A stretch of 64,000 bases of DNA, from positions 87,514-151,513 of the forward strand of contig QBZD01000001.1 of assembly GCA_003282485.1 (NCBI GenBank). The letters run 5' to 3'. This document shows, in pieces, positions 4,678 through 30,751 of this stretch. This DNA is from Pelagibacteraceae bacterium AG-333-C14. Lineage in GTDB: Bacteria > Pseudomonadota > Alphaproteobacteria > Pelagibacterales > AG-422-B15. Every line of letters begins with the position of its first letter. The stretch's first letter is position 1. A program made the translations under genes and the position numbers. The notes beneath the pieces were generated by a model. The model saw only the letters and a program-made list of their open reading frames with translations, was not told where the DNA came from and ran no database searches.

Positions 4678-4679
4678 TA

Positions 4680-6280: not shown

Positions 6281-7227
6281 AATTACTCATAGGGTTTGAC
6301 AATAAAATATATCCTGGGGTTAATGAATTTAAGTCTATTGGTACTTGCAAATTTATTAACTATAATCAACAGTCAATCTTAAAATATATAGCTTCATGTG
6401 ATATATTTGTCCCTCATCTTAGAGAACCAATAGATAACAAAATCCTTAAGTATGCAAAAAAATTAAAAATAATTGCAACTCCCAGCACTGGCAAGGACCA
6501 CATAGATGAAAATGAACTCAATAAAAGAAATATTAAGCTAATTACGCTTTTCGAAGATAGGAAATTTCTTGATAAGATCAGTAGTACTGCTGAGATGAAT
6601 TGGCTATTGATTCTTTCATGTATAAGAAATTTTAGATTTCTAATAGACCGGATTCAAAAAGAAAAAAAGTGGACTAATAGCGATATAAGGGGATATGAAT
6701 TACAGGGTAAAACTATTGGGATAATTGGATTTGGAAGATTGGGAAAAAAAATAGCTAAGTACGCAGAAACGTTTGGCATGAATGTGCTTGTGTATGATAT
6801 AAAAAAAATAAAGCATAAAAAAAAATATTCATTCGTTACTCTAAACAAGTTATTAGAGTCTGCGGATATAATAAGTATGAATGTAAAACTTAATCCGACT
6901 AGTAGGCAAATGATTAGTTTTGAGCAAGTAAATAAAATGAAAAAGGGAGTTATATTTGTAAATACAGCAAGAGGAGATACTGTATCATCCAGGGCCTTAA
7001 TAAAAGGCCTTAATAGTGGAAAAATAGAATCAATTGGAATTGATGTTTGTAATAATGAGTACTCATCATCTTATCTGCCGAATGATCCTTTGATAACAAA
7101 ATCGTTTACAGATAAGAGAATAATAGTTACACCCCATGCTGGAGGAGCAACTCATGATGCTCATAATCAAGTATTTAAAAAATTGTCTGATTTAATAAAA
7201 ATAAATATTTCCAATAATAAAATATGA
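6277..7227 (+). CDS. D-isomer-specific 2-hydroxyacid dehydrogenase
   Basis: GKTIGIIGFGRLGKKIA Rossmann motif, NTARGD, IVTPHAGG. Confidence 0.88.
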   Translation: MKLLIGFDNKIYPGVNEFKSIGTCKFINYNQQSILKYIASCDIFVPHLREPIDNKILKYAKKLKIIATPSTGKDHIDENELNKRNIKLITLFEDRKFLDKISSTAEMNWLLILSCIRNFRFLIDRIQKEKKWTNSDIRGYELQGKTIGIIGFGRLGKKIAKYAETFGMNVLVYDIKKIKHKKKYSFVTLNKLLESADIISMNVKLNPTSRQMISFEQVNKMKKGVIFVNTARGDTVSSRALIKGLNSGKIESIGIDVCNNEYSSSYLPNDPLITKSFTDKRIIVTPHAGGATHDAHNQVFKKLSDLIKINISNNKI

Positions 7228-8396
7228 AAAAAGTATCAATTTATATAGGAAGTCGTGCAAATTTTAGTAGTGCAATTTCAATATTAAAATCTATAAAAAA
7301 CTCAAGAAAACTCAAGCTTTCAATAGTTATAGGTGGTGCTGGAGTGATTCCTAGGTATGGGGATATTAGAAAGCTATTGGATCAACAAGGCTTTAAGAAG
7401 TACTTTGTTGCCAATACTCTAGTTGAGGGAGAAACACCAATCACAATGTCAAAGTCCGTAGGTCTAGGCATAACAGAGTTTTCATCAATTTTAGATTTAA
7501 TCAAACCAGATTACGTAATTGCTATTGGAGATAGATTTGATGTACTGCCATGGGTTATTAGTGCTGCAATGATGAATATCTGTGTTGCTCACACAATGGG
7601 GGGTGAAAGGTCGGGTACAATTGATGAAAGCATAAGACACTCAATAACAAAATTTTCAAATATACATTTTCCAGCTAATAATGATGCTAAAAATAGAATC
7701 TTAAAAATGGGCGAGAATAAAAAAGATGTTCATGCAGTCGGTTGTCCAAGAATAGATTATGTACTGGATACACTAGCTGGAATTAAAAAAGGAAATTTTA
7801 TTAGTTCTAAATCTTTATTTAAGACATATAGGGGAACAGGTCCTATTTTCTCTCTTGAAAAATCAAAATTTTTATTAGTTTTATTTCATCCAGTTACAAC
7901 AGAATATGGCTCAAATAAAAAACATATTGATGCAATACTTTCAGCGTTGAATATAATGAAAATGAATACAATTCTAATCTGGCCAAATGCTGATGCTGGA
8001 TCAGATGAGATTTCAAAGGGTATAAGAATTTTTAGAGAAAAATATAACCCAAGCTGGTTACATCTTTTCATTAATTTACCATTAAAAATTTATGTTCAAC
8101 TGATGTATCAATGTTCTTGTTTAATTGGTAATTCAAGTAGCGCAATTAGAGAAGGAGAAGTAATTGGCGTTCCATCGGTCAATATTGGAACAAGACAAAA
8201 TATGAGATTAATGGGAAACAACATTTTGAATTGTAAACCACAAAAAAATGCAGTTTTAGATGCAGTAAATACTCAAATCAAAGTTGGAAAATTTAAAACA
8301 AAGAATTTATATGGTAAAGGTAATGCAGGGAAGAAAATCGCATCTATTTTAGAAAAGCATAAACCTGGTAGTACGCAAAAAATTATAACTTACTAG
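7224..8396 (+). CDS. neuC: UDP-N-acetylglucosamine 2-epimerase family (NeuC-like)
   Basis: IYIGSRANFS, IKPDYVIAIGDRFD, CVAHTMGGERSGTIDESIRHSITKFSNIHF, GNSSSAIREG motifs. Confidence 0.88.
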   Translation: MKKVSIYIGSRANFSSAISILKSIKNSRKLKLSIVIGGAGVIPRYGDIRKLLDQQGFKKYFVANTLVEGETPITMSKSVGLGITEFSSILDLIKPDYVIAIGDRFDVLPWVISAAMMNICVAHTMGGERSGTIDESIRHSITKFSNIHFPANNDAKNRILKMGENKKDVHAVGCPRIDYVLDTLAGIKKGNFISSKSLFKTYRGTGPIFSLEKSKFLLVLFHPVTTEYGSNKKHIDAILSALNIMKMNTILIWPNADAGSDEISKGIRIFREKYNPSWLHLFINLPLKIYVQLMYQCSCLIGNSSSAIREGEVIGVPSVNIGTRQNMRLMGNNILNCKPQKNAVLDAVNTQIKVGKFKTKNLYGKGNAGKKIASILEKHKPGSTQKIITY

Positions 8397-13561: not shown

Positions 13562-14806
13562 TTAATCAATATTTATTGTTTTTTTGAATGAAATTGGTGA
13601 TTCATCTTCATTATAAATTATATTACTTACAATATTTAATTTTGAAATTATTTTTTTTAGTTTACTTGGTATTTTTTGTTTAGAGTTTCCAAAAAGTAGA
13701 TTGATATTTTTTTCCGTAGTATTTTTAAATAAATTAGGATTTTTAAATTTTTCTAAAATCTGATAAAAATCAGCCTTTGTGATTTTGATCCATGAACAAA
13801 AGGTTTCAATTTTTTCTGGTGATATCCTTAAGTAAAAGTCATTCAGCTCACTTGCTTCTTTACGACTTATTCTGTTAAATCTTATTTCCTGACATAGGTG
13901 ATCTGTGACTTTTCCATATCCATATTTTATAAATTTAAAAAGGTCATGAACTTCTGAATAAAATATATTATTTGAATCCTCAAATGGAAAAAGTGCTCTA
14001 TTAGAATTTAATGTTCCATATTTATAAGTTTTAATTATTTTTTCCTGCATCTTTCGATTATCCCAGTTTAAATAATTATTTAAATATATTCCCCTCAAAC
14101 CTATTTTTTCTAAATAATCTCTATTTGGATAATTAAATTTTATTAATTCTTTTTTAAGTTTATCTGATACGCTTTTTTTACTCAACAAATCTTCTGGCTC
14201 TAATCCAAATAGATCATGATCTCTTCTATACTGTCTGTTCATTTGAATTCCGTCCATATATGAAAACATGCCAACTTGTTCAATTCCTTGATGCATTCCC
14301 CAAATAATAAGGGGTATTTTAAATTTTACAGCAATCTGCACTGGAAAGACGCTATGACCTGCGAGAGAAAGCCAATGAAAATTCCCATAGTTCTTGAGAG
14401 AATATCTTGCTATTTCTTTGGCTTTTGACTGATTTAAGTTAAATGAGATTAAATCACACCCTAAATCAGTTTGAAGTTTTTGTATATTATATAAACCAGT
14501 TAATGAATTATAATGACTATTGTATGTAACAAATAGAGGTTTCAAACCAAGTTCATTTTTTACATAGTGAGCTGTAAAAAGACTGTCTTTCCCACCAGTT
14601 ACCGGAACAACACAATCGTAATGATTATTATTACTGAATTTAGTTCTATCTATTAAGTTCTCTAAATCTTTTTTTCTATCCTGCCAGTTAATTACTTTTT
14701 TTTCTTTGTGCTGCAAACACCCACTACAGATTCCATCTTCATCAAAAATTATACCTAGAGGATGATTTGATGGATAGAGACATTTTTTACAAAGTTTGAC
14801 GACCAT
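13562..14806 (-). CDS. N-acetyl sugar amidotransferase (WbpG/PseA family), copy 1
   Basis: N-terminal CKKCLYPSNHP...CSGCLQH zinc-type motif, PP-loop VPVTGGKDS. Confidence 0.88.
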   Translation of the reverse strand: MVVKLCKKCLYPSNHPLGIIFDEDGICSGCLQHKEKKVINWQDRKKDLENLIDRTKFSNNNHYDCVVPVTGGKDSLFTAHYVKNELGLKPLFVTYNSHYNSLTGLYNIQKLQTDLGCDLISFNLNQSKAKEIARYSLKNYGNFHWLSLAGHSVFPVQIAVKFKIPLIIWGMHQGIEQVGMFSYMDGIQMNRQYRRDHDLFGLEPEDLLSKKSVSDKLKKELIKFNYPNRDYLEKIGLRGIYLNNYLNWDNRKMQEKIIKTYKYGTLNSNRALFPFEDSNNIFYSEVHDLFKFIKYGYGKVTDHLCQEIRFNRISRKEASELNDFYLRISPEKIETFCSWIKITKADFYQILEKFKNPNLFKNTTEKNINLLFGNSKQKIPSKLKKIISKLNIVSNIIYNEDESPISFKKTINID

Positions 14807-15559
14807 CTATCTTACTAATAAACCTTTATCTTTTATATATTTCTTTAATTTGTATGTAGGCTCCTCATAATGATGTAAATAGTTTCCTACCCCAAAAGCA
14901 GATACATTTGTTTGTCTCAACAAATTGCAGGCATGATCTGGAATGCCTAGGCCACCAACTGCTATTATTGGCTTTTCAGACAGTTCATCTAAGATTTTAA
15001 ATTCTTTAATTGCATAACCATGTTTTGTTCCATCACATAAAATAGATTGAAATAAGAATTCTCCTACTGGCATAGAATTATATTTTTTAATAATGTCTAT
15101 GATTTTAAAATTTTTGTTATTTTTCCTATCTAATAAATATAAATTATGATCTTTATTACTCTTAAAGAAATCTAAAGATAAAATTATTGATTGTGATCCA
15201 TAAAAATAAGAAATTTTTTCAATTAATTCTTTATTCAGTGCAGATTTATTTATAATTAATTTATCTACACCATTACTAATCAATTTTTTTGCAATATTAA
15301 TATTTGAAATTCCTCCTCCTACAGATAAAGGAAGTTTATTTAACTTAGTAATTTTTTTTAATATTTTTGTATTATTATAAAATTTATTTTTTTCATCACT
15401 TATATCTATGATGCTTATTTCATCTGCATCACTCCAATCATTTAAAAATTTTATTGTATTGATTAATGATGCTACTGGTTTAACTATTTTAAATTTTATT
15501 GTTTCTACGACATGACTGTTTTTTACTAATACCATGGCTATCATTCTTCGAGTTACCAT
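14807..15559 (-). CDS. hisF: HisF-like cyclase (imidazole glycerol phosphate synthase subunit HisF family)
   Basis: (beta/alpha)8 HisF-like: DEISIIDIS, LPLSVGGGISN, PIIAVGGLG; adjacent hisH. Confidence 0.85.
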   Translation of the reverse strand: MVTRRMIAMVLVKNSHVVETIKFKIVKPVASLINTIKFLNDWSDADEISIIDISDEKNKFYNNTKILKKITKLNKLPLSVGGGISNINIAKKLISNGVDKLIINKSALNKELIEKISYFYGSQSIILSLDFFKSNKDHNLYLLDRKNNKNFKIIDIIKKYNSMPVGEFLFQSILCDGTKHGYAIKEFKILDELSEKPIIAVGGLGIPDHACNLLRQTNVSAFGVGNYLHHYEEPTYKLKKYIKDKGLLVR

Positions 15560-16170
15560 TGATTACAAATCCTTGCAAAATTTGATAAAATCTTACTTCC
15601 ATTATCGAGACTACGCTCTGGGTGAAACTGCAAGCCAAATATATTCTTATCTTCTACAATTGAAGAAATTTTTCTTTTATAATGTGTTATTCCTTTTGTA
15701 ATTTCTTCTTTCTGCGGGTGAGAGCTATAAGTATGATTAAAATAGAAATATGAATTATTTGTAATATTTTCAGTAATTAAAGATTTACTTAATTTTACTT
15801 TATTCCAACCAACATGATGCTGATATTTTTTTTTATTTGATATTTTTTTTGTGCTTCCTTCAAGAAGACATAAACATTTAACATCATTGGACTCTTCTGA
15901 GCTCTGAAATAAAACTTGCATACCCAAACATATACCAAGGATAGGCATCTTTTTATTTATAATTTGTTCAAATAAATTATCTTTTGTTTCACCAGAATTA
16001 AAATATTTCATAACTGGATCTATTGAACCTACTCCGGGAAGAATAAGACCTTTGTATGATTTAAAATTATCTTTATTACCTGAAATTATTCTATTCTTTA
16101 CTGATAAAAAATTCAGAATACTCTCTATGGATTTTACATTGCCAGTATTATATTTAATTATTCCTATCAT
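15553..16170 (-). CDS. hisH: HisH-like glutamine amidotransferase
   Basis: GIIKYNTGNVKSI, LPGVGSI, GICLGMQVLF (nucleophile Cys), GLQFHPERS. Confidence 0.9.
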   Translation of the reverse strand: MIGIIKYNTGNVKSIESILNFLSVKNRIISGNKDNFKSYKGLILPGVGSIDPVMKYFNSGETKDNLFEQIINKKMPILGICLGMQVLFQSSEESNDVKCLCLLEGSTKKISNKKKYQHHVGWNKVKLSKSLITENITNNSYFYFNHTYSSHPQKEEITKGITHYKRKISSIVEDKNIFGLQFHPERSLDNGSKILSNFARICNQW

Positions 16171-17297
16171 GATTTCATTAAATCAAATGTTCTTCTCCAG
16201 TTCTTACCATTTTTGATCCATAGATTTTTAGATCTATACCTATTTGCAATTAAAAAAAATCTTTTTTTGGTAATGCCTAAGTATTTACAAAAATCGTCAA
16301 TATATTTTGAAGAGCACTCACCATCATTCTTAAAAACAATTTTTTTTGCTTCTTTTCTTGTTAAAATACCTAGTCGTATCATTTCACTCGCCTCTTCAGT
16401 TGCCTTTCCAAAGCCAAATTTAAAATATTTTACCATTTGATTAACTGCTACAAAGTCATCATCAAGAGCATCATAATTTGTAAGAGCTCCTAGCGAGTTT
16501 GGATTTTCTTTTCTTATCCTCAGGCCATTTTTTATTGCAACTCTTGCATTACTATAGTTATTAAAATCTTTAAAATAATATCCTAAATATCTAATGTTTA
16601 TTCCATTCTTAATTAAGTCTTTTTTACTAGGGTACATATAAGGTATCAGATCTTTCTTTTTTATTTTATAATCAGGAATTGTCATCCAAGATATATCCCC
16701 ACTCCCTAACGTATTATAATTTATCATATCAATTGCATTACCTTGATCTTTTGAGCCTTCTTTTTCTCCATAAGCAAGACTATTGTTTTCTCCAAGAAAA
16801 ATCATTTTTATACCGTATGCAATTGCAACCCTAGGAGCTGAAGCATACAAAGTTAGTTCAGTTGATCTTGCATAATTCCCATATTCAATGAAAGAATATT
16901 TCATAAGTTTTTTATAAATAACTGGATCAGGTTCAACGGTTATGATGTCAAAACCTAATTTATTAAGGTTGTTAATATTTTCATATCCAATTTGAGTAGT
17001 CATTTCAGGTGGACTAACCGTGGATACAAGTAAAGGGTTAAGTCTTAATGTATCTCTGCATAATAAAGCTAGTCTAGTACTATCTTTTCCCCCACTAGCC
17101 GAAATAATGCAGTCATAACCAGATGGTGACTTATTTTTTTTACACCAATTTGCAATTTCTTTTATCTTATTTTTTCGATCTTTCCATATATTTGAGTTTA
17201 AACTGTTGAGGTAATTACAAGGAAAGCATATACCTTCTTTATCAAATTTAATGTATGGCCGTGTATTGGGTTGAAGACATTTCTTACAATATTTCAT
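16167..17297 (-). CDS. N-acetyl sugar amidotransferase (WbpG/PseA family), copy 2
   Basis: CKKCLQPNTRP...CFPCNY, PP-loop ISASGGKDSTR. Confidence 0.88.
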   Translation of the reverse strand: MKYCKKCLQPNTRPYIKFDKEGICFPCNYLNSLNSNIWKDRKNKIKEIANWCKKNKSPSGYDCIISASGGKDSTRLALLCRDTLRLNPLLVSTVSPPEMTTQIGYENINNLNKLGFDIITVEPDPVIYKKLMKYSFIEYGNYARSTELTLYASAPRVAIAYGIKMIFLGENNSLAYGEKEGSKDQGNAIDMINYNTLGSGDISWMTIPDYKIKKKDLIPYMYPSKKDLIKNGINIRYLGYYFKDFNNYSNARVAIKNGLRIRKENPNSLGALTNYDALDDDFVAVNQMVKYFKFGFGKATEEASEMIRLGILTRKEAKKIVFKNDGECSSKYIDDFCKYLGITKKRFFLIANRYRSKNLWIKNGKNWRRTFDLMKS

Positions 17298-17337: not shown

Positions 17338-17571
17338 TTACTGTTTACTTTTTATTTTTAATAGATCTATAATATCACTTATCTTAATAATTTTTTCGAC
17401 TTCTTTCGGATTTATTTCAATATCAAATTCATTTTCAATTGCAACCATAAGGTTAATATGATTAAATGAATCCCAGTTTGGAATTTTTTTTAACTGCGTA
17501 CTTAATTGAAAATTTTTTAATTTACAATCAAAAGTTTCTTCCATTATAGATTTTAATCTTTTTTTATTCAT
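17338..17571 (-). CDS. acyl carrier protein
   Basis: 77 aa; phosphopantetheine site context NWDSFNHINLMVAIENEFDIEI. Confidence 0.85.
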   Translation of the reverse strand: MNKKRLKSIMEETFDCKLKNFQLSTQLKKIPNWDSFNHINLMVAIENEFDIEINPKEVEKIIKISDIIDLLKIKSKQ

Positions 17572-18418
17572 TAGTAACGAACTCTGATTTACTCATACTT
17601 TTAATTTCATCTTCTTTGATGTTATTAACCCAATATTTAATTTCTTCAACATTTTTAATATAAGCATATGGGTTATCATATAAAATATCATAGGTTTCAT
17701 TAACATATGATGAAATACTTGTAGCTTCTAAAGATAGTATTGGATTTTCTGAAGATAATATTTTCTTTTTATCTCTTAACCTTTTTTCAATCTGTTTATG
17801 ATCCCAAAGTGGCTCAATATTTTTCGGACGACAGTACATTATTTCCTCACATTCACTTACATAGTGACCTTTTGAGTAGAGTTTTCCTGAAAATCTCTTA
17901 AAATATCTATAAGGAACTCTTAATACTTCCTCTGCATGATGAAGAATTGAACATGATAGATGCCAATCGACTCCTAAGACCATAATTTTTGCTTTATTTT
18001 TAATCAACCACGACATAATGCTTTTATTGCCCCATGATGTCTGTATTTTTAAATTGGAAAGATCATTTTTTAACATACCATAAACTGTATAACTCTGCAT
18101 AGGTTGCGAAGTTCTTTGCATTTCTGGTCTAAGTATTGAACAATCTGATAAGGCGCCAGTGTCACTCTTGGTTAATTTTATATCAAAAATTTTATTCTTA
18201 GAAAATTCCATTGAATAACTTGGTAAGACTAGTGTTCTTTTATTTCCACATACATCTTGGAAAACATCTAGTATCATGTTTGCTGTATATTTTGCATCAG
18301 CCCCAAACTTATGAGCAAAAGATGATATTCCAGAATAAAGAATTATAACTTCATCATCCTCATCAATTAAGCTTAGTACGTTATCAACAAGATCTTGCTC
18401 AGTAAGTTTTGATTTCAT
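17564..18418 (-). CDS. AAC(3)-family N-acyltransferase-like protein
   Basis: LVLPSYSMEF, TGALSDCSILRPEMQRTSQPMQSYTVYG, SILHHAEEVLRVPYRY pattern of aminoglycoside 3-N-acetyltransferase family. Confidence 0.82.
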   Translation of the reverse strand: MKSKLTEQDLVDNVLSLIDEDDEVIILYSGISSFAHKFGADAKYTANMILDVFQDVCGNKRTLVLPSYSMEFSKNKIFDIKLTKSDTGALSDCSILRPEMQRTSQPMQSYTVYGMLKNDLSNLKIQTSWGNKSIMSWLIKNKAKIMVLGVDWHLSCSILHHAEEVLRVPYRYFKRFSGKLYSKGHYVSECEEIMYCRPKNIEPLWDHKQIEKRLRDKKKILSSENPILSLEATSISSYVNETYDILYDNPYAYIKNVEEIKYWVNNIKEDEIKSMSKSEFVTNE

Positions 18419-20120
18419 TAATTTGAATCTGCGTTTTAAATTTTTTAATATTTTTTCTATCTAAACTTAGAATATTTTTATTTTCTTTGAATGAAAAATT
18501 CTTAATTGTCTCTTGTAAATATTTATTTTTTTTTGTTTTTTTAAAATTAACTTCAATTTTATCAATTTTTTTCTTTTTAACCCAATCAGATAAATGATTA
18601 AATGCAGCTTCCTCAACCCCTCTGCCAAACACCCTACATGACATCACCCAATCTTGAATAACTAGAGAGCTCTTTGAGACACTTGCAATAATAACATAAA
18701 TAATACCTGACTCACCAAACTTATCTCTGAGATTACCACAAAATAGGTAATGATTATTTTTATTCAATAAGCTTAGAATGTCTGACCTCTTTGTTCTATT
18801 GTATGTAAAATTAAATTGGTTAGTTTTTTCAATTAATGAGTTTACCCTTTGTAAATTATTTTTAGAAATAGGAATAATATCTAATTTCATACTCAGTGAA
18901 TTTAAGTAATTATTTATATCAGTAAACTTATCTTTGCTTTTACTTCTTTTGATGTCTTGTCTGAACATTTTTACTCTTTTCTTATCCTCATGATTTGATT
19001 TCGTTATGTTAAAAAGGCCTGTTGATATTATAGATGGGACTCTTTTTTCAGCATCTTCATCAATATCAAGAACTATCATTTCGGGTATCAATTTTTTCAT
19101 TTGTTCTCTCTCAAATACAGAGTCATCTATGAAGCAGATATTTTCTAAGCTGATATTTAATTGATTAGCAATTTTTTTTATCGCTAAATGCTTTGGTTCC
19201 CAAGATATGTGCATTCCTAATATATCTTTACACTTCAGAATCATCTCTTTTCTTTTTCTAAATGCATTATTTACAGGTTCAAAATTATTTTTTGATACGG
19301 CAAATAAGGGTATTCCTAATTGGGATTGATCTTTAAGAAATCTTTGCATTTCAAGAAATGCTCTACCTAAACCATTTGGGTCTAATTCAATATTTTCATA
19401 GCCTAAATCTCCTATTATTCCACCCCAGATCGTATCATCCAAATCAAAAGCAATTGCTTTCACTTCATTCTTAATTGCAATTGAAATTATATTGCTAATC
19501 TCTATACCTACTCTATTAACTGAATCTGGATGACATGGAATTTTTGCTGTTGTCCAATATCTGGGGGCAAACCAGTTCAAATTATTTTTACTATTAATAA
19601 CATTTTCAGGTGAAAAAATGATTGCCTCTTTTGATACATCTTTAACAATTTTTGAGACTATATTTTTTCTCCATCTAACAAATGGTGAGTATGGATTATT
19701 TTCTGCACTTAATGTCTCAGGCAAAATTACTAAAACATTTTGACCATTATTTATAATGTTGTTTATGGCATTAATAGTATATTTATGATCAAATTTCTTT
19801 CTATATATTCCTCCTTCAGTGATTCCCATTGAAGATAACCATATTATCCACCAGTCTGTTGGTGTTTTTGATTTAAAAGCTTCTGATTGCCAGTTATTAT
19901 ATTGAAGAGATTCAACTTGAATTTTTTTTTTCTGCAAACCAAAAAATAAATTCAAAGCAGGTTTGATAAAATCAATGTTGCAGTTGCCGCCAACTTTAAT
20001 TCTGAGCGATATATTATTTATTTTTTCTTTAGTAAGAGTTTTCTCTACAAGCTTTTGCCTCACAACTGTATCTTTATAAGATAAAAATCTTAGCTCACTA
20101 AAGACATCTATTTTTTTCAT
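18399..20120 (-). CDS. FkbH-like HAD-superfamily protein (glyceryl-ACP type)
   Basis: AFDLDDTIWGGIIGDLG, CFIDDSVFEREQMK, NQFNFTYNR, C-terminal GNAT-like RVFGRGVEEAAFNHL. Confidence 0.88.
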   Translation of the reverse strand: MKKIDVFSELRFLSYKDTVVRQKLVEKTLTKEKINNISLRIKVGGNCNIDFIKPALNLFFGLQKKKIQVESLQYNNWQSEAFKSKTPTDWWIIWLSSMGITEGGIYRKKFDHKYTINAINNIINNGQNVLVILPETLSAENNPYSPFVRWRKNIVSKIVKDVSKEAIIFSPENVINSKNNLNWFAPRYWTTAKIPCHPDSVNRVGIEISNIISIAIKNEVKAIAFDLDDTIWGGIIGDLGYENIELDPNGLGRAFLEMQRFLKDQSQLGIPLFAVSKNNFEPVNNAFRKRKEMILKCKDILGMHISWEPKHLAIKKIANQLNISLENICFIDDSVFEREQMKKLIPEMIVLDIDEDAEKRVPSIISTGLFNITKSNHEDKKRVKMFRQDIKRSKSKDKFTDINNYLNSLSMKLDIIPISKNNLQRVNSLIEKTNQFNFTYNRTKRSDILSLLNKNNHYLFCGNLRDKFGESGIIYVIIASVSKSSLVIQDWVMSCRVFGRGVEEAAFNHLSDWVKKKKIDKIEVNFKKTKKNKYLQETIKNFSFKENKNILSLDRKNIKKFKTQIQINEIKTY

Positions 20121-20212: not shown

Positions 20213-21019
20213 ATGATTGAAATCATTTGTGATGAAGATAATTTTTTTTCCTTTCAAAGGCGTAATGTTTTAAGTAAGTTAAACGCTAGGCAATTAAAAG
20301 TTTATAATCAGATTAATAAGTATCTCGAAGAGTACCTGAAATTTTATGATATTAGGCCCAAAAAAGTAATCAGCCTATACAAGAATTTCTTAAAATCTTA
20401 CTCATCAGACTGTAAAAAATTTATTGAAACTAATTGTTATCCTGTACAATTAATAGATGAAATTAATACATTAGATAGAATAGAGTATGATGTTACTTTA
20501 ATTATTTCTTGCTTATTATCATTTCATAGATTCACAATTATCGATGAAATAACTAATCATAAATATATCTCTGAATCGTCACTATTTATTGGTATAGGTC
20601 CAGGACTAGAAATTTTTTTATTAAAAGATAGATTTGAAAAGTTCGAAGCATACGACACAGAAATAAGTAATTTCATAAAAAATAAATTTAATAAAAATAT
20701 CTATGAAAAAAAATTTTCCTATAAGAAAAAATTATACAAAAATATATTTGCAATTGAAATAATAGAACATCTTGAAAAGCCATATGAATTACTTAGTGAA
20801 TTATTTAATTCATTGGATAAAGATGGCATAATTACATTAACAACAGCAAAAAATATTCCTCAATTTGACCATTTATATAATTTTGAAAATGAGAATGATT
20901 TTTTACAAAATATTGAAAAAATTGGATTAAAAGTGGTATATAAAAAAATTATTGATCATCAAAGCTTAGTAAAAGAATTAAATGCCAATAATGTATTTTA
21001 TAGATTAAAAAAAATATAA
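20213..21019 (+). CDS. putative class I methyltransferase-like protein
   Basis: SLFIGIGPGLEIFLLKDRFEKFEAYD, IFAIEIIEHLEKPYELLSELFNSLDKDGIITLTT. Confidence 0.65.
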   Translation: MIEIICDEDNFFSFQRRNVLSKLNARQLKVYNQINKYLEEYLKFYDIRPKKVISLYKNFLKSYSSDCKKFIETNCYPVQLIDEINTLDRIEYDVTLIISCLLSFHRFTIIDEITNHKYISESSLFIGIGPGLEIFLLKDRFEKFEAYDTEISNFIKNKFNKNIYEKKFSYKKKLYKNIFAIEIIEHLEKPYELLSELFNSLDKDGIITLTTAKNIPQFDHLYNFENENDFLQNIEKIGLKVVYKKIIDHQSLVKELNANNVFYRLKKI

Positions 21020-21020: not shown

Positions 21021-22076
21021 ATGAATAAAGTAAGTAAAATAGAAAAAAGATTTATTTTAGCACCTATGACAAGGTGTATATCAAAAATAAATGGGTGTCC
21101 CTCAAAGCAATTAGGAAAATTTTATGTAGATCAAGTTAAAAATGGGTTAACTACTATAATTACGGAGTCATGTGCGGTTAATGGAGAAGATGCCAGAGGA
21201 TATCTAAATGGAAGTCAATTTTTCAATGACCAACACGCAAAATCATGGGCTCCAATCATTAACCAAGTACATAAGCATGGGGGAAAGATTTTTATACAAT
21301 TATTCCATTCCGGTCGTTTAACGGTAAAGAAAATTACAAATTGTAATCCTATTTCTGCATCTGCATTAGAGCCTAGTGAGGTGCCCTCATTCTGGAGGCC
21401 ATTATTTGATCAAAAAATAGTTCATTTTCAAACCATGACTAAATTTGAAAAACCAAAAAAAGTGTCCTTAGGAAAAATAAGAAAAATAATAAATCAATTT
21501 AGAAGATCTAGTGAACTTGCAAAAAATGTAGGTTTTGATGGTGTAGAAATTCATGGCGCTCATGGCTACCTAGTTCATTCATTTTCTACTTTTGATGCAA
21601 ATCAGAGAAAAGATATTTACAATTCTAAAAGTAATCTTTTTTCTAGTGAATTAATTGAGGAATGTAAAAGTGTTTTGGGTAAAACACTATTAAGCTACCG
21701 TATCTCGTTACATACGGTTGACAATCCTTATGCAAAATATTCTAAAGATATTTATAATATACCTTCATTAATTAAAGCCTTAGACAAGGCAGGAGTAGAT
21801 ATCTTTCATTGCTCAGAAGTAAAAGCAGGAGAAAATATGTTTGGCTCAAATGAGTCACTCTTAGAATTAGTAAGAAAAAATACGAAGAAAAAAATAATTA
21901 CTTGTGGGGGAATTGACACACTTGAAAAAATAAAAAGACTTGACAAAAAAGGTGCTGATTATTTTGCTTTTGGAAGATCAGCTTTATCAAATCGAGACCT
22001 AGTGAAAAAAATAATATCTAAGAAAAGACTGATCAAATTTGAATATGAAAAACACTTTTATGAAACAAGAAATTAA
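21021..22076 (+). CDS. NADH:flavin oxidoreductase (old yellow enzyme family)
   Basis: FILAPMTRCISKINGCPS, FIQLFHSGR, GVEIHGAHGYLVHSF, ITCGGI, FAFGRSALSN. Confidence 0.88.
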   Translation: MNKVSKIEKRFILAPMTRCISKINGCPSKQLGKFYVDQVKNGLTTIITESCAVNGEDARGYLNGSQFFNDQHAKSWAPIINQVHKHGGKIFIQLFHSGRLTVKKITNCNPISASALEPSEVPSFWRPLFDQKIVHFQTMTKFEKPKKVSLGKIRKIINQFRRSSELAKNVGFDGVEIHGAHGYLVHSFSTFDANQRKDIYNSKSNLFSSELIEECKSVLGKTLLSYRISLHTVDNPYAKYSKDIYNIPSLIKALDKAGVDIFHCSEVKAGENMFGSNESLLELVRKNTKKKIITCGGIDTLEKIKRLDKKGADYFAFGRSALSNRDLVKKIISKKRLIKFEYEKHFYETRN

Positions 22077-22461
22077 GAAAAATAACGTAGAAAAAAACTT
22101 TAGAATAACTAAAGAACATGTAGCTAAATTTAACAGCATAACAAGAGATAGTCACCCACTGCATAAGGAATTAACCTTTTCTAAATCTAAAAACTTCTCC
22201 AATATCGTTATAAATGGAATGTTTATTTCATCATTATGCATTGGATTAATAATGAATAAAATGTTTAGTAAAAACTTCATTCTTGCATCTCAAAAATTTA
22301 GCTATCATAAACCTATACTTATTAATACAAATTTTAAGATATCAGCTAGGATATTAAATTTTTATACACGACATAAATTTTGTGAAGTCGAGGTCAAGGT
22401 ATATTGTAATAAAATAGTTTATTGTTCTGGCAATATAAAAATATCATATTTGAAAAACTAA
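22039..22461 (+). CDS. MaoC-like hot-dog dehydratase
   Basis: KFNSITRDSHPLHKE ... NIVINGMFISSLCIGLIMNKMF; start may be an internal Met. Confidence 0.78.
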   Translation: MNMKNTFMKQEIKKNNVEKNFRITKEHVAKFNSITRDSHPLHKELTFSKSKNFSNIVINGMFISSLCIGLIMNKMFSKNFILASQKFSYHKPILINTNFKISARILNFYTRHKFCEVEVKVYCNKIVYCSGNIKISYLKN

Positions 22462-22524: not shown

Positions 22525-23283
22525 ATGGATATTGAAGTTATAAAAAAATTAAAAAAAGACTATCATGAAAATGGATATACAATCGTTAGAGGCTTAGTAA
22601 GCAAAGCTCATATAAATGATGCAAAAGAAGATTTAAATAAAGAGATAAGTAAGCTAGTCAAAAATAAAAAACTAAGATCCAGAGATATCAATTATACGAA
22701 CGACCAAATAAATTCAATTCATTCTATGAGTGGATGGTCATGGACTAAGAAATTACAAAAAAATAAAAAACTGATAAAAATAGTTTCCCATTTAATAAAA
22801 GGTAAATTAGAAAATTATGGAGCTGAACTTTTCGCAAAACCAGCAAATGTAGGTCTCCCGGCCCCACTTCATCAAGATAATTACTTTTGGTGTCTAAAAA
22901 ATAATGAAGCACTTACTGTATGGATTGCTCTAGATAAAGCGAATGATAAAAATGGAGGAGTTTTTTATTTTCAAAAATCGCATAAACTTGGACTTCTAGA
23001 GCATGTCCAGTCATTCGCCCCAGGGACTTCTCAAAAAATTAAATACCCTGATGGATTAAATATTTTTAAAAAGTATTCACCTTCATTAAATCCAGGGGAT
23101 TGTATTATTCATAATAGCTATGTAGTACATGGTAGCGATAAAAATATCAGCAATAGCCCAAGAGTTGGCTGGACATTAAGATTTAAGGCAAAAGACAATA
23201 AAATTGACCCTATGCGAAAAAAACAATATGAAAAAGAATTAGTATTTCAAATTAAAATGAGAAAAAAAAGTGCCAGGATATGA
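22525..23283 (+). CDS. phytanoyl-CoA dioxygenase family protein
   Basis: APLHQDNYFW, GGVFYFQKSHKLG, GDCIIHNSYVVHGSDKNISNSPRVGWTLRF: His-X-Asp...His facial triad. Confidence 0.88.
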   Translation: MDIEVIKKLKKDYHENGYTIVRGLVSKAHINDAKEDLNKEISKLVKNKKLRSRDINYTNDQINSIHSMSGWSWTKKLQKNKKLIKIVSHLIKGKLENYGAELFAKPANVGLPAPLHQDNYFWCLKNNEALTVWIALDKANDKNGGVFYFQKSHKLGLLEHVQSFAPGTSQKIKYPDGLNIFKKYSPSLNPGDCIIHNSYVVHGSDKNISNSPRVGWTLRFKAKDNKIDPMRKKQYEKELVFQIKMRKKSARI

Positions 23284-24439
23284 ACTAATTGGCAAGGAAG
23301 AGCAAAAAGAAATTGACTCTATCTTTAAGAATGGAAATGGCGTGCTATTTCGACACGGTTTTGAGAATATCAGGAATAATTCAAACAAAGTTTTAGAATT
23401 TGAACGTAACTTCGCAAAACTAGTTGGTTCTAAATATGCCCTTGCAGTCACATCAGGTACCGCTGCTTTAAGAGTAGCCTTGGCATCACTAAATATTAAA
23501 AAAGGCGATGAGGTAATTACTCAAGCATTCACATTTGTTGCCACTGTAGAAAGTATTGTTGAGTCAGGAGCTACCCCAGTTTGTACAGAAATTGATAAAA
23601 CATTAAATATGGATCCAGATGATCTCTTAAAGAAAATAAATAAAAAAACTAAAGCGGTTATAGCTGTACATATGCTTGGTGTACCGGCACGTTTAGACAA
23701 AATTAAAAAAATATGCAAAAAACAAAATATCCCTCTTATTGAAGACACTGCATGGGGTTGTGGAGGTTCATACAAAAATAAATTCTTAGGAACCTGGGGG
23801 GAAATTGGAGCATACAGTTTTGATTTTGCAAAGACACTTACAACCGGTGAAGGAGGTATGTTAGTTTTTAAAGATAAAAATACATTTCTAAATGCTAAGG
23901 CCTGGCATGATCATGGACATGAAAATAATCCAAAGTACCCAAGATGGCTTGACACTAGAAGAAGTAGTGGATTTAATTTTCGTATGTCTGAATTACAAGG
24001 AGCAGTAGGAATAGCTCAACTAAAGAAACTTAAGAAGATTATTAAACTACAAAATAGAAATATGGAAAAAATTAAAAGAAAGTTATCCTTAATTAGAAAT
24101 ATAGAATTCCGTGAAATAATTGCAGGATCAAATGAGACAGCTGATGCTCTCATTTTTTTTGTGAAAAATAAGAAAACAGCAATCTTGTGCCGAGAAGAAT
24201 TACTCAAACAAGGAGTTGGAACAAAAATTTTACCTGAAGCCTACACTTGGCATTTCGCAGGTACTTGGAAACATATACCTAGTCTATGGTCTAATTTTAA
24301 AAATAAAATAAATGCTTTCCCTAAATCGATTAGACTATTGGAAGCATCAGTCTCAATTCCAATAAATATTCATATGGAAAACGATATTCCTGAAAAAATC
24401 TATCAAGCAATAAGTAAAGTAATATTAAAAAATAATTAG
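23270..24439 (+). CDS. DegT/DnrJ/EryC1/StrS family PLP aminotransferase
   Basis: FAKLVGSKYALAVTSGTAALRVAL, IEDTAWGCGG, YSFDFAKTLTTGEGGML with catalytic Lys. Confidence 0.9.
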   Translation: MPGYELIGKEEQKEIDSIFKNGNGVLFRHGFENIRNNSNKVLEFERNFAKLVGSKYALAVTSGTAALRVALASLNIKKGDEVITQAFTFVATVESIVESGATPVCTEIDKTLNMDPDDLLKKINKKTKAVIAVHMLGVPARLDKIKKICKKQNIPLIEDTAWGCGGSYKNKFLGTWGEIGAYSFDFAKTLTTGEGGMLVFKDKNTFLNAKAWHDHGHENNPKYPRWLDTRRSSGFNFRMSELQGAVGIAQLKKLKKIIKLQNRNMEKIKRKLSLIRNIEFREIIAGSNETADALIFFVKNKKTAILCREELLKQGVGTKILPEAYTWHFAGTWKHIPSLWSNFKNKINAFPKSIRLLEASVSIPINIHMENDIPEKIYQAISKVILKNN

Positions 24440-25085: not shown

Positions 25086-25108
25086 CATTATTGATATATA
25101 AATTAAAA

Positions 25109-26170
25109 ATGAATTCAATAAAACTTGGAAAGAGAGTTATAGATAACAACAGTGAACCCTATATTATTGCTGAAGTTGGGGTTAACCATGAAGGATCTTT
25201 TGAGCAGGCATTAGAGTTAATAAATTTAGCAAAAGAGGGTGGCGCAGATGCTGTAAAATTTCAATCCTATAAAGCAGAAACTTTGGCATCAAAAAATTCT
25301 CCCGCTTATTGGGACACAGAAGAAGAGAAAACTACATCTCAGTTCAATTTGTTTAAAAAATATGACAATTTTAATTTTGATGACTATGAATCACTAGCAA
25401 AACATTGTAAGAAAATAGATATTGATTTTGTTTCTACTCCTTTTGATAAAGAGTCAGTCGAATATTTAGATAAATTAGTTCCGTACTATAAAATTGCTTC
25501 TGCAGATATTAATTGTATTCCATTATTAAGGTTAGTTGGTAATAAAAAGAAGCCTGTTATTATATCAACAGGATGTGCAAGTATAGATGAAATAAAATTA
25601 GCTAAAAAAACATTACAAGATGCTGGAGCGCCTAATGTGATAATTTTACATTGCATACTTAATTACCCAACAAATATAAAAAATGCAAACCTATCAATGA
25701 TTACAGATTTAAAACAAACCTTTACCGAAAATATTATTGGTTATTCAGATCACACTCATCCAGATGAAGGTATGATTACTCTTTCTACTGCTTACTTATT
25801 AGGAGCCGTAATAATTGAGAAACACTTTACAAATAATAAAAAACTTCCAGGAAACGATCATTACCATTCAATGGATATCAATGACTTAAAAATTTTTAGA
25901 AAAAGCTCTAATAAGATTAAACAATTGAAGGGCTCAATTTTCACGAAACAGCCTATCAAGGAGGAGGAGAAATCTAGAACAAACGCCAGAAGAAGTATAT
26001 TTTTAAAAAGTAATTTAAATGCTGGAGATATAATAAAAGAAGAAGATATAACATTTCTTCGACCAGGTTTTGGTATCACAGTTGATAATTGGGATAAAAT
26101 CGTTGGCAAAAAAATAAATTCAGATAGTAAATCAGGATATATGCTAAAATGGTCAGATATTAATGAATAA
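25109..26170 (+). CDS. second NeuB-family synthase (SpsE/legionaminate synthase-like)
   Basis: YIIAEVGVNHEGSFEQALELI, VKFQSYKAETL, HCILNYPT, IGYSDHT, GAVIIEKHFT; ATG at 25109 preferred over the TTG at 25091. Confidence 0.88.
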   Translation: MNSIKLGKRVIDNNSEPYIIAEVGVNHEGSFEQALELINLAKEGGADAVKFQSYKAETLASKNSPAYWDTEEEKTTSQFNLFKKYDNFNFDDYESLAKHCKKIDIDFVSTPFDKESVEYLDKLVPYYKIASADINCIPLLRLVGNKKKPVIISTGCASIDEIKLAKKTLQDAGAPNVIILHCILNYPTNIKNANLSMITDLKQTFTENIIGYSDHTHPDEGMITLSTAYLLGAVIIEKHFTNNKKLPGNDHYHSMDINDLKIFRKSSNKIKQLKGSIFTKQPIKEEEKSRTNARRSIFLKSNLNAGDIIKEEDITFLRPGFGITVDNWDKIVGKKINSDSKSGYMLKWSDINE

Positions 26171-26182: not shown

Positions 26183-28486
26183 ATGATATTACTTGGTACA
26201 GAGGTTGCAGGACCTGCTGCCTATATATCTAGTATTAATTTTGGTAAAATTAAAACTAAATGGGTTTATTCTAATAGACTAAAAAGTTTTTATATTCAAA
26301 AAAATATTTCAGCTATTAAGAAATGGAGGAATTTAAAAAATATTGAATATGTTATTACTGGAACTTGTAAAGAAGGTGGTCTTGATCAGCAAATAATTTT
26401 GTGGGCTAAAAAAAATAACATACCTTCAATAACTTGTGTTGATCATTGGAGTTTATTTTATCTTCGTTTCAGATATAAAAATAAATATTTATTTCCTGAT
26501 AAAATACTTGTTAATGATGAATACGCAAGAACTCTAGCTATAAATGATGGCATTCCTGAAGAAAAAATTCACGTTGCTGGCAATCCCATTTTAGAAAAGT
26601 TGTTTAGTAGAAAAATTCAAGTCACAAAAAATAATAACTTACAGAAATATCATAACTTTCCTAAGAAAAAAGTTTTAGTTTTTGTATCAGAAAATTTATC
26701 TGAGTTTAAAAAAAATACAAAAGAATATAAAGGCTACGACGAGTTTGATGTTTTGAAATTAATAATTAAATTTATGAAAAGTAATTATATTCTTGCTATT
26801 AAACTGCATCCTGAAGAAAATAAAAAAAAATTTCTTAATTATATTAATATAGAAAATACTTTTTTTTTAAGTGATATATCCGTTGAAGAAGTAGCTCGTG
26901 GAGCTGATATAATTATAGGCATGGAGTCATTTTTTCTTATCGAGATGGCAACTCTCAGAAACGACGTCATTAGCTTAAGGCCAAAGAGCAAGCACATTTT
27001 TATTGGGAATATTTTAAATGCCACTATTGCAGCAGATTCTCTAAAATCTCTAAATGAAATTCAGAGAATAAAAGGTAAGAAAAAAGATCATTTTAAAAAT
27101 AATTTCAAAAATTCCTCTGATAAAATAATTAAATTAATTAAAAGTACAGTAAATGACAATAAGCCGAAAAATATTGAAAAAAATGAGGGTAATGAGATGT
27201 TTGCTCTTGCAAAAAAACTTTGGCCACTAAACCGTAGTCTTACTGGTGAAGGTGTTAGAAAAACACTAAAGATAATAAATTCAAAAGTAAAAAATATGAA
27301 ATTAACTGAGGTTAGGTCTGGTACAAAAGCTTTTGATTGGGATGTGCCTAAGGAATGGTATGTGAAAAATGCATATATAATTACCCCTCAAGGAAAAAGA
27401 ATTTGTGATTTCAAAAATAATAATTTACATCTAGTTGGATATAGTACGCCTGTAAATAAAAAACTTACATTGCAGGAACTAAACCTAAATCTACATTCTC
27501 TTGAAAGTCAGCCTAATGCTATTCCTTATGTGACTTCTTATTATAATGAAAACTGGGGATTTTGCTTAACTCACAATGAAAGAAAAGTTCTTACTGATGG
27601 ACTTTACCAAGTCATTATTGATAGTAAGCTTTTCGATGGATCACTAACTTATGGTGAAGTTCTCATAAAAGGTAAAAGTAAGAAAGAAATTTTTTTATCC
27701 ACTTATATTTGCCATCCATCGATGGCAAATAATGAACTTTCAGGTCCTGTTGTAACTACATATCTAATAAAATGGTTAAAAAGTAAGAAAAACCTTAAAT
27801 ACTCTTATAGAATAGTATTTATTCCAGAAACGATTGGTTCAGTTGTTTATTTATCTAGAAATTATAAATCCATGAAAAGAAATATTATTGCGGGCTTCAA
27901 TATTTCGTGTGTTGGGGATGATAGAAGCTATTCCTATCTTCCTTCTCGTAATGGCAATACTTTAAGTGATATAGTTGCCAAGCATGTATTAAAATGGACT
28001 GATAAAGAATATATATCTTACAGTTGGGCAGATAGAGGAAGTGATGAAAGACAATATTGCTCTCCAGGGATAGATCTTCCTATAGCATCAATAATGAGAA
28101 CAAAATACCATGAGTATGAAGAATATCACACTTCACTCGACTCTTTAGGAAGAGTTGTAACAAGTAAAGGCTTGTACGGTGGCTACAATGCACTAAAAAA
28201 AACCATTGAAGCGATTGAAAATAATTGTGTTCCATTAACTAAAATTAATGGCGAACCATATCTTGCAAAAAGAAACCTTTATCCTAAAACAAGTAAGTTT
28301 GAGTTTGAGTATAGAAAAGAAGAATTGCCATCGAATCTAGATGTTATGATGGACCTAATAAGTTTATCTGATGGTAAAAATAATCTAATCACAATTGCAG
28401 AAAAAATTAATGTTCCTATTTGGAACCTATATACCATATTGGATAAATTAGTTTCTAATAATATTATATCATTAAAAAATAATTAG
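26183..28486 (+). CDS. fusion: N-terminal GT-B-like transferase + C-terminal DUF4910/M28-like aminopeptidase-type domain
   Basis: N-term ITCVDHWSLFY...HVAGNPILEKL...IIGMESFFLIEMA; C-term MFALAKKLWPLNRSLTGEGVRKTLKII ... LSTYICHPSMANNELSGPVV ... SDERQYCSPG. Confidence 0.75.
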   Translation: MILLGTEVAGPAAYISSINFGKIKTKWVYSNRLKSFYIQKNISAIKKWRNLKNIEYVITGTCKEGGLDQQIILWAKKNNIPSITCVDHWSLFYLRFRYKNKYLFPDKILVNDEYARTLAINDGIPEEKIHVAGNPILEKLFSRKIQVTKNNNLQKYHNFPKKKVLVFVSENLSEFKKNTKEYKGYDEFDVLKLIIKFMKSNYILAIKLHPEENKKKFLNYINIENTFFLSDISVEEVARGADIIIGMESFFLIEMATLRNDVISLRPKSKHIFIGNILNATIAADSLKSLNEIQRIKGKKKDHFKNNFKNSSDKIIKLIKSTVNDNKPKNIEKNEGNEMFALAKKLWPLNRSLTGEGVRKTLKIINSKVKNMKLTEVRSGTKAFDWDVPKEWYVKNAYIITPQGKRICDFKNNNLHLVGYSTPVNKKLTLQELNLNLHSLESQPNAIPYVTSYYNENWGFCLTHNERKVLTDGLYQVIIDSKLFDGSLTYGEVLIKGKSKKEIFLSTYICHPSMANNELSGPVVTTYLIKWLKSKKNLKYSYRIVFIPETIGSVVYLSRNYKSMKRNIIAGFNISCVGDDRSYSYLPSRNGNTLSDIVAKHVLKWTDKEYISYSWADRGSDERQYCSPGIDLPIASIMRTKYHEYEEYHTSLDSLGRVVTSKGLYGGYNALKKTIEAIENNCVPLTKINGEPYLAKRNLYPKTSKFEFEYRKEELPSNLDVMMDLISLSDGKNNLITIAEKINVPIWNLYTILDKLVSNNIISLKNN

Positions 28487-28487: not shown

Positions 28488-29453
28488 ATGCAACATAAAA
28501 TTAATTCTGTTTTGATAGGATGTGGTGCAATAGGTTTTTTTAATGACTTTCATTCACGTAAAAAAGGGGCATTTAGTCATTTTAAATCAATGTATAAATC
28601 TGATTTGTTTAATTTGCTTGCTATTATGGATAAAGATCAAAAAAAACTGAATACAATAAAAAAAAAATACAACATAAATACTTATTCGAATTATTTTTCT
28701 ATGCTACGTGAAAATGAAGTTGATTTAATTGTGATTGCAACTCCAGATAAGACACATATTAAAATTTTGAAAGAAATTATTTCTTTCAAGCCAAAAATTG
28801 TATTATGTGAGAAGCCTATTTCAAACAATTTAAAAGATATTAAAAAAATAATTGCTTTATATAAAAAAAATAAAATTCATTTACTTGTAAACTATTCATT
28901 TAGATTTAATTCTGACTTCAGAATAATAAAAAAAATGTTAGATTCTAAAAAATTTGGTAAAATAATTAAGCTAAACGCTACATACTCAAGGGGTTATTTT
29001 CACAATGCATGCCATTATATTGATTTTGCATTATGGCTATTTGGTAAACCAAAAAATATTGAAGTAATTGATTCTTATAAAAGTACAAGTTATCAAGAAG
29101 ATTATACTATAGCCGTAAACTTAAAATATAAGAATAATTTGAATGTTCAAATTTCTGGGGTAGATTTAGATAATATAGCTTCAACAGGTTTATCAATTGT
29201 ATGTGAAAAAGGTATAATTATTGTTAACCCCATCGATGAAATTAAAATTTTTAAGATTAGAAGAAATAAACATCAATCAAATGAAAATGAATTTTACTTA
29301 GCATCAGATAAAAAAATAAATTATGGCAATTCAATGCTTTATCATTATAAGAACATATATGATTTATTTTATAATAAAGTAAATGCAATTTCTCCAATTA
29401 AGGGTTTAGTTGAAATTGCAAAAATAAATGAGAAAGTTAAAAAACTAATATGA
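28488..29453 (+). CDS. Gfo/Idh/MocA family oxidoreductase
   Basis: SVLIGCGAIGFFNDFH, LIVIATPDKTHI, VLCEKPISNN. Confidence 0.88.
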   Translation: MQHKINSVLIGCGAIGFFNDFHSRKKGAFSHFKSMYKSDLFNLLAIMDKDQKKLNTIKKKYNINTYSNYFSMLRENEVDLIVIATPDKTHIKILKEIISFKPKIVLCEKPISNNLKDIKKIIALYKKNKIHLLVNYSFRFNSDFRIIKKMLDSKKFGKIIKLNATYSRGYFHNACHYIDFALWLFGKPKNIEVIDSYKSTSYQEDYTIAVNLKYKNNLNVQISGVDLDNIASTGLSIVCEKGIIIVNPIDEIKIFKIRRNKHQSNENEFYLASDKKINYGNSMLYHYKNIYDLFYNKVNAISPIKGLVEIAKINEKVKKLI

Positions 29454-30751
29454 TAAATAATGATAGTTTAGCTATTTTGGGCGGCAAACCAACTTTTGAT
29501 AAGCCCCTTGAAAGATATAATTCTTTTGGGGAAGAGGAACTGAATGCGGCCAATGAAGTCTTAAGATCAGGAAAACTCTCTTATTTCTTAGCATCATGGA
29601 ATGAAATACCAAATATTGGCGGTTTCTATGGCGGACCAAAAGTTCAATTGTTTGAGAGGTTAATTGAAAAACATTTTAATGTTAAGCATGCTGTTACTGT
29701 AAATTCTTGGACTTCTGGACTAATTGCAGCAGTAGGTGCAATAGGCATTGAGCCTGGCGATGAAGTAATTGTAACGCCATGGACTATGTGTGCATCAGCA
29801 ACTGCAATTTTACATTGGAACGCAATTCCTGTGTTTGTTGATATTGAAGATGAGACATTTAATATAAACCCAGATAAAATTGAAGAAAAAATAAGTGAGT
29901 ATACAAAAGCAATAATGGTGGTGGATATTTTTGGTCAGTCTGCTGACATGGAAAAAATTAATCGTATTGCTAAAAAGTACAATCTTAAAGTTATTAGTGA
30001 TACTGCTCAAGCTCCCAATGCTATGTATAAAAATCATTTTGCTGGAACAATTGCTGATATTGGTGGCTTCAGTCTAAACTTTCATAAACATATTCATACT
30101 GGAGAAGGAGGTATATTAGTTACTAATGATGATAACCTTGCAAGAAGATTGCAACTAATCCGCAATCATGGAGAGACAATTGTCGATGACATGGGGGTAG
30201 ATGACATATCTAATATGATTGGCTATAACTTTCGCCTGGGTGAAATTGAGGCCGCAATAGGTATCGAACAATTGAAAAAAATTGATAAACTTGTTGAAAG
30301 ACGTGTGGAAGTAGCAAATAAAATACGAGAGGGATTATCTTCATTGAAAGGTCTTAGAATGCCAATACTAAAACCAAATTGTACTCATTCATATTATGCT
30401 TTCCCTTTAATTTACGATAAAAATCTTACAGGAGTTGATAGAAAAGTTATTTATGATGCATTAAAAGCGGAGGGTATCCCAACTGATATTGACTACCCAA
30501 ATCTCCATATGCTTCCTATGTACCAAAGAAAAATTGCTTATGGTAAAAAAGGATTTCCATGGAGCTCTGATATTTATAAAGGAAACGTTGATTATAGTAA
30601 GGGTATATGTCCAGTAGCCGAAATGTTAGTCGCAGAAAAAATTATGATAATCTCAATTTGTGACTATGAATTTTCTGATAAAACCATTGATATGTATATC
30701 AATGGTTTCAAAAAAATTTGGTCGAATTTAGATAAGCTTAAATCACTCTAA
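29450..30751 (+). CDS. DegT/DnrJ/EryC1/StrS family PLP aminotransferase
   Basis: VNSWTSGLIAAVGAIGIEPGDEVIVTPWT, ISDTAQAPNA, FSLNFHKHIHTGEGGILVTND with catalytic Lys. Confidence 0.9.
   Translation: MINNDSLAILGGKPTFDKPLERYNSFGEEELNAANEVLRSGKLSYFLASWNEIPNIGGFYGGPKVQLFERLIEKHFNVKHAVTVNSWTSGLIAAVGAIGIEPGDEVIVTPWTMCASATAILHWNAIPVFVDIEDETFNINPDKIEEKISEYTKAIMVVDIFGQSADMEKINRIAKKYNLKVISDTAQAPNAMYKNHFAGTIADIGGFSLNFHKHIHTGEGGILVTNDDNLARRLQLIRNHGETIVDDMGVDDISNMIGYNFRLGEIEAAIGIEQLKKIDKLVERRVEVANKIREGLSSLKGLRMPILKPNCTHSYYAFPLIYDKNLTGVDRKVIYDALKAEGIPTDIDYPNLHMLPMYQRKIAYGKKGFPWSSDIYKGNVDYSKGICPVAEMLVAEKIMIISICDYEFSDKTIDMYINGFKKIWSNLDKLKSL

Follow-up and report, generated by a model that had tools for sequence, protein, structure and literature searches.

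What would a surface-sugar gene island of a Pelagibacterales bacterium do with an FkbH-like protein, an acyl carrier protein (ACP) and an AAC(3)-like acyltransferase encoded by three overlapping genes? This question is raised by positions 17338-20120 of a 64,000-nucleotide stretch (hereafter the window; G+C content 31%) of contig QBZD01000001.1 from Pelagibacteraceae bacterium AG-333-C14, whose genome is 1.19 Mb in size and 84.5% complete. These figures and the gene content suggest a streamlined marine alphaproteobacterium resembling SAR11. The three open reading frames were found where an initial annotation, made from the DNA letters alone, had placed them, all on the minus strand and in the gene order FkbH, AAC(3)-like protein, ACP, with the described overlaps of 8 bases (17564-17571) and 20 bases (18399-18418). 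The protein identities assigned to them were likewise borne out, by TIGR01686 for FkbH, by PF02522 together with the fold for the AAC(3)-like protein and by NCBIfam ACP models for the ACP. We consider it reasonably probable that these genes form a module whose dedicated task is to supply the acyl group of an unusual N-acylated sugar of the cell surface.

According to this reading, FkbH would take 1,3-bisphosphoglycerate, strip its phosphate groups and load the C3 unit onto the ACP of the cluster. The AAC(3)-fold enzyme, with acyl-ACP replacing acetyl-CoA as the donor, would then acylate the amine of a nucleotide-activated amino sugar, the acceptor most likely being an intermediate of the island's own nonulosonic (pseudaminic/legionaminic-type) acids. 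A different nitrogen would receive an acetamidino group from the WbuX-, HisH- and HisF-type proteins encoded next to the trio, in the manner of Campylobacter jejuni. The group finally transferred could be glyceryl or O-methylglyceryl, or it could be a lactyl-like unit if a MaoC dehydratase and a reductase act as well.

The FkbH-like protein reaches 261.6 bits against TIGR01686 (cut-off 146.65). In an alignment of 158 FkbH proteins its HAD motif I-IV residues (D226, D228, T230, S276, K310, D332 and D333) were found to be intact, and C495, which lies in an SCR motif, is invariant; we infer that C495 bears the acyl group. Its proposed role is to charge the ACP with a C3 unit derived from 1,3-bisphosphoglycerate. 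A scan of viral contigs detected no relative of FkbH or of the AAC(3)-like enzyme.

The AAC(3)-like protein scores 73.3 bits against PF02522 (Antibiotic_NAT; cut-off 25), and its AlphaFold model (pLDDT 90.4) was matched over the full length by Foldseek to YokD, FrbF and AAC(3)-III (2nyg, 3sma and 7mqk; E ~1e-15, prob 1.00), at about 12-18% identity to solved family members. Missing active-site residues had been named in the initial annotation as grounds for giving up its proposal. These residues are present: the catalytic His and Glu of the family correspond to H160 and E163 in the alignment, and H160 is the counterpart of the His altered in the BA2930 H183A/G structures. The names of the Pfam and NCBIfam families could point to an aminoglycoside resistance gene; the aminoglycoside resistance equivalog NF033082, however, is matched with 36.5 bits as compared to a cut-off of 270, and the gene lies in a glycan island, overlapping those for FkbH and ACP. 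The resistance reading was rejected on these grounds, its probability being negligible, and we propose that the enzyme may pass an acyl group from the ACP to the amine of a sugar.

The carrier itself falls short of the Pfam PP-binding cut-off (17.1 as compared to 20.8 bits) and matches NCBIfam ACP models at E 4e-11 as well as solved ACPs, with 2lml as the best match in the PDB. D34-S35, the DS phosphopantetheine site, is invariant in 9 aligned ACPs from glycan clusters, and an AcpS-type phosphopantetheinyl transferase is encoded in the source genome. A search of this incomplete genome for phosphopantetheine sites found the cluster ACP alone; a fatty-acid ACP was not seen, its contig being missing or the protein having been missed by the scan.

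The search for neighbourhoods combining ACP, AAC(3) and FkbH that had been suggested as a check gave a positive result. Among 397 genomes of the order, 38 carry AAC(3)-like genes and 16 an FkbH above cut-off. Both occur together in 6 genomes, which is more than expected (Fisher p=0.002), and the trio is contiguous or overlapping not only in the window but also at two loci (L041 and L043) from two other genera of the order. A wider sample comprised 110 FkbH loci from named genomes and from Pseudomonadota genomes. Here an AAC(3) gene adjoins FkbH at 8 loci, all of which include an ACP, with varying gene orders; they come from Pseudomonadota, a Bathyarchaeota metagenome-assembled genome (MAG) and a Desulfurobacterium MAG, among others. 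Wider sampling yielded 3 more FkbH-AAC(3) loci, namely L202, which also carries a DUF4910 gene, L210 and L207, the last of which gave no ACP match. The FkbH-ACP-AAC(3) trio is found again in at least four settings distant from one another, with overlapping genes and differing gene order. In a tree of AAC(3) proteins, which has long branches and does not resolve the deeper nodes, the window AAC(3) falls, at 100/100 support, into one clade with the AAC(3)s from ACP modules of the FabH+FabG type, apart from the other FkbH-linked AAC(3)s. To judge from this grouping, FkbH and AAC(3) have therefore probably been joined more than once, and such repeated assembly argues for a functional link between them.

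The same clade also speaks for a different division of labour, in which the AAC(3)-like protein would be an ordinary sugar N-acyltransferase dependent on acetyl-CoA (or on 3-hydroxybutyryl-ACP), while FkbH and ACP serve some other acceptor, for example a hydroxyl group. Many AAC(3)s of the order occur without FkbH, and FkbH-ACP-MaoC cassettes of other phyla that include a short-chain dehydrogenase/reductase (SDR) gene adjoin an MBOAT O-acyltransferase. We nevertheless regard this explanation as unlikely, as the AAC(3) gene is located between FkbH and ACP and overlaps at both junctions, no FabH was seen in the cluster, and the FkbH-ACP-AAC(3) combination recurs independently.

The FabH+FabG-type modules are found in nonulosonic acid clusters at L032 (6435-9155), L034, L035 and L047 and consist of an ACP, a FabH-like synthase, a FabG-like reductase and an AAC(3), a set that would seem to lead to N-(3-hydroxybutyryl) sugars. 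At L058 (6323-8935) an AMP-forming adenylation enzyme (AA-adenyl-dom, near DltA) is combined with ACP and AAC(3), possibly representing an aminoacyl or other acyl form of the ACP/AAC(3) scheme. The occurrence of ACP-AAC(3) with FkbH, with FabH and FabG or with an AMP-forming ligase suggests a scheme with interchangeable loaders.

On the strand divergent from the trio, a MaoC-type dehydratase gene begins 1.9 kb from the FkbH start and overlaps the gene of an old yellow enzyme (OYE)-type ene reductase. The catalytic D..H of MaoC is kept ('TRDSHPLH' aligns with SEDFNPLH of PhaJ), and the OYE is of the N-ethylmaleimide reductase type with an HGAHGYL motif. MaoC probably tailors the C3 unit while this is bound to the ACP, and the OYE is its possible reductive partner. 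The first gene of this divergent operon encodes a methyltransferase-like protein, which may O-methylate the acyl group or the sugar; a weak relative of it precedes MaoC/SDR-FkbH-ACP at L235. MaoC genes are located within 5 kb at 11 of the 16 FkbH loci of the order as compared to 1 of 28 FkbH-less AAC(3) loci (p=6e-6, a value that is optimistic because the MaoC hidden Markov model was partly seeded from FkbH loci). When the window MaoC was used as the sole query against 197 genomes of the order, 4 relatives were found outside the window. Three of them adjoin FkbH (~2e-4 by chance), and the fourth adjoins an ACP, an adenylation-type enzyme and an SDR. Furthermore, the gene order FkbH, ACP, MaoC, SDR is common in Clostridia, Bacteroides and Omnitrophica, where MaoC-SDR fusions also occur, and the SDR of L103 (Bacteroides rodentium) carries a fused ACP domain.

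Given the MaoC relatives beside FkbH, and FkbH-ACP followed by MaoC and a ketoreductase elsewhere, the sugar may receive a lactyl-like group and not glyceryl. MaoC and OYE would then belong to the module: MaoC would turn glyceryl-ACP into 2-hydroxyacrylyl/pyruvyl-ACP, and a reductase, OYE here and SDR elsewhere, would convert this to lactyl-ACP, so that the sugar carries N-lactyl instead of N-glyceryl. Several observations are at odds with this sub-version of the favoured reading. A FabG-type SDR is absent next to MaoC in the window, MaoC is encoded on the divergent strand, and the action of an OYE on such a thioester is hypothetical. OYE homologues at other loci are not linked to FkbH, and a role of the OYE as a regular FkbH partner was not supported. 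The loading module of bryostatin BryA, a modular polyketide synthase (PKS), is said to combine FkbH, dehydratase and ketoreductase domains, with D-lactyl-ACP as the proposed product, but a literature search gave no paper confirming this precedent. We take the N-lactyl route as a serious possibility that falls short of an even chance. With an ene reductase where other loci have an SDR, and OYEs not FkbH-linked elsewhere, more than one final acyl group comes into question; the MaoC partner makes a dehydrated or reduced, lactyl-like unit about as likely as glyceryl. Overall, the transfer of an ACP-tethered C3 unit to an amino sugar, as put forward in the initial annotation, agrees with sequence, fold, gene linkage and the C. 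jejuni precedent, although the MaoC partner had not been linked to it; the N-glyceryl product named there has to share its place with a lactyl-like one, for which its wording 'reduced/modified' leaves room.

FkbH-ACP-MaoC-SDR cassettes were seen at L097, L103, L130, L141, L161, L176, L178, L181 and L234, in Clostridia, Bacteroides, Omnitrophica, Pseudomonadota and the order of the window, with an MBOAT acyltransferase adjoining some of the loci. Rather tentatively, FkbH, ACP, MaoC and a reductase might constitute a widespread, hitherto unnamed cassette that provides for the decoration of surface glycans by converting 1,3-bisphosphoglycerate to lactyl-ACP or to some other C3 acyl-ACP that has been deoxygenated. 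Its final acyltransferases would be interchangeable, with AAC(3) or perhaps GNAT serving for N-acylation and MBOAT for O-acylation, and the window would hold an AAC(3) version in which an ene reductase replaces the SDR.

The setting of the trio in a glycan cluster, also part of the initial annotation, was confirmed by nearby NeuB, NeuC, WbuX, DegT and DUF4910 genes (Table 1). The trio cluster sits between two nonulosonic acid gene sets, and the minus-strand run continues from the ACP gene into WbuX, HisH, HisF and a second WbuX. These acetamidino genes (13562-17297), together with MaoC and OYE, are probably linked functionally to the trio although they lie outside it. FkbH and ACP are best known from secondary-metabolite pathways of the methoxymalonyl or tetronate type; a role of this kind in place of a glycan-related one is, however, very improbable here. 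No PKS or non-ribosomal peptide synthetase gene was seen among the window open reading frames, the neighbours are of the glycan type, and neither the two methoxymalonyl dehydrogenases nor the tetronate FabH are found beside FkbH. The PKS reading was rejected.

Table 1. Genes of the trio and of its surroundings in the window.
Feature	Position	Strand	Support
FkbH-like protein, 573 aa: N-terminal domain, HAD phosphatase domain, C-terminal acyltransferase-like domain	18399..20120	-	TIGR01686
AAC(3)/FrbF/YokD-fold N-acyltransferase, 284 aa	17564..18418	-	PF02522, fold
Stand-alone ACP, 77 aa, attachment Ser35 in 'WDSFNHINLM'	17338..17571	-	NCBIfam ACP models
WbuX/WbpG/PseA-type N-acetyl sugar amidotransferase, 3' of ACP gene	16167..17297	-	TIGR03573 292.9 bits
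HisH-type glutaminase partner, acetamidino formation	15553..16170	-	TIGR01855
HisF2/WbuZ-type acetamidino partner	14807..15559	-	TIGR03572 and NF038364, both below cut-off
Second WbuX-type N-acetyl sugar amidotransferase	13562..14806	-	TIGR03573 304.3 bits
S-adenosylmethionine (SAM) methyltransferase-like protein	20213..21019	+	PF13489, below its cut-off
OYE-type ene reductase	21021..22076	+	PF00724 E 1e-47
MaoC-type (R)-3-hydroxyacyl-thioester dehydratase	22045..22461	+	PF01575 42.4 bits (cut-off 27), E 6e-11
DegT/LegC/PseC-type sugar aminotransferase	23270..24439	+	TIGR04181 and TIGR03588, both below cut-off
NeuB/PseI-type nonulosonic acid synthase	25091..26170	+	TIGR03569 317 bits, below equivalog cut-off
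Fusion protein with Cj1295-like C-terminal DUF4910/DUF2172/HTH_47 region	26183..28486	+	PF16254 E 1e-96, PF09940, PF16221
DegT/PseC-type sugar aminotransferase	29450..30751	+	TIGR03588 247 bits, below cut-off
KdsB/PseF-type nucleotidyltransferase	30758..31510	+	
Second nonulosonic acid set: NeuB 3658-4677; PseF-type CMP transferase 5513-6280; hydroxyacid dehydrogenase 6277-7227; NeuC 7224-8396	3658..8396	+	

Some further features of the island deserve mention. One HisH/HisF pair is flanked by two WbuX-type amidotransferases, which suggests two acetamidino acceptors or two acceptor specificities. The DegT/LegC/PseC-type aminotransferase (23270..24439) is a possible source of the acceptor amine. 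Cj1295, which we take to be a DUF4910 member, resembles the C-terminal region of the fusion protein, the N-terminal ~340 residues of which have no family match. The large proteins encoded at 12096-13547, 33265-34812 and 2-1870 share short motifs and are possibly glycosyltransferases of the island; for the first of them, no match was found in Pfam or NCBIfam.

Several points weigh against the proposed acyl-donor module. AAC(3)-like genes occur without FkbH in 32 of the 38 AAC(3)-bearing genomes of the order, and no ACP was detected within 5 kb at 16 of the 28 FkbH-less AAC(3) loci. ACP chemistry therefore does not follow from the presence of an AAC(3) by itself. To our knowledge, AAC(3) enzymes of known donor use acetyl-CoA, and it is from gene linkage that we infer the use of ACP by the window enzyme. 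MaoC and OYE next door may mean that the group is not glyceryl, and the likeness to C. jejuni set out below is drawn from published locus descriptions.

If the proposed module operates as described, a glycolytic intermediate would be diverted via polyketide-style carrier chemistry, giving an ocean-type, streamlined bacterium more diverse outermost sugars. Relative to N-acetyl, the predicted mass shifts are +46.005 for glyceryl, +60.021 for methylglyceryl, +74.037 for dimethylglyceryl and +30.011 for lactyl. The comparative set as a whole suggests that ACP-dependent N-acylation follows a plug-in scheme: the ACP would be charged by FkbH, by FabH with FabG or by an AMP ligase, and delivery of the acyl group would fall to an enzyme of the AAC(3) fold.

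When compared with known systems, the AAC(3)-like protein of the window has the fold and the catalytic His/Glu in common with the AAC(3)/FrbF/YokD family, but its gene is linked to those of an ACP and an acyl loader, so that acyl-ACP would stand in for free acetyl-CoA. The closest solved structure to the window ACP is Geobacter metallireducens GmACP3 (2lml), and a WDSxxHxNL motif is present in both; GmACP3 reportedly has been proposed to serve lipopolysaccharide biosynthesis. In the tetronate and methoxymalonate pathways FkbH loads glyceryl onto an ACP, with 1,3-bisphosphoglycerate as the donor (PMC7489565, PMC4979870). The combination of FkbH with a discrete ACP is thus shared, whereas the glyceryl unit goes into a polyketide there and the window has a predicted N-acyltransferase in a glycan island. 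As far as can be read from the genes, the module would be a variant of known chemistry. SAR11 genomes contain a large hypervariable surface-polysaccharide region with 5S and 23S genes on its flanks (PMC2217521), and the surface-sugar island of the window similarly adjoins 5S, 23S and 16S rRNA genes at its end.

The nearest precedent is provided by C. jejuni. In the flagellin of strain 11168, C16H26N2O9 replaces C13H20N2O7 (PMC4975691). We calculated the difference as C3H6O2 or 74.037; addition of di-O-methylglyceryl to a hydroxyl would give 116.047, and the observed value thus indicates that one acetyl of pseudaminic acid is swapped for di-O-methylglyceryl. Cj1295 is required for di-O-methylglyceryl pseudaminic acid (PMC3068675). 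The fkbH-domain gene cj1302 lies in the Pse locus of NCTC 11168 and is a pseudogene in strain 12664, and DMGA-Pse5Ac7Am is absent from strains 12661 and 12664 (PMC7099621). The enzyme transferring the group is not named in PMC3068675, PMC4975691 or PMC7099621, our literature search found nothing treating Cj1296, Cj1298, Cj1299 and Cj1302 together, and the scan of named genomes with the FkbH alignment returned no Campylobacter locus. The module proposed here would, if correct, offer a concrete route to this sugar. In C. jejuni 11168 one acetyl of Pse5Ac7Ac is replaced by a C3-glyceric acid derivative, and the other nitrogen can be acetamidino (PMC3068675, PMC7099621, PMC4975691). The window likewise unites a nonulosonic acid synthase, FkbH and a Cj1295-type gene in one locus, together with acetamidino genes, and differs from C. 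jejuni by its additional MaoC dehydratase and OYE.

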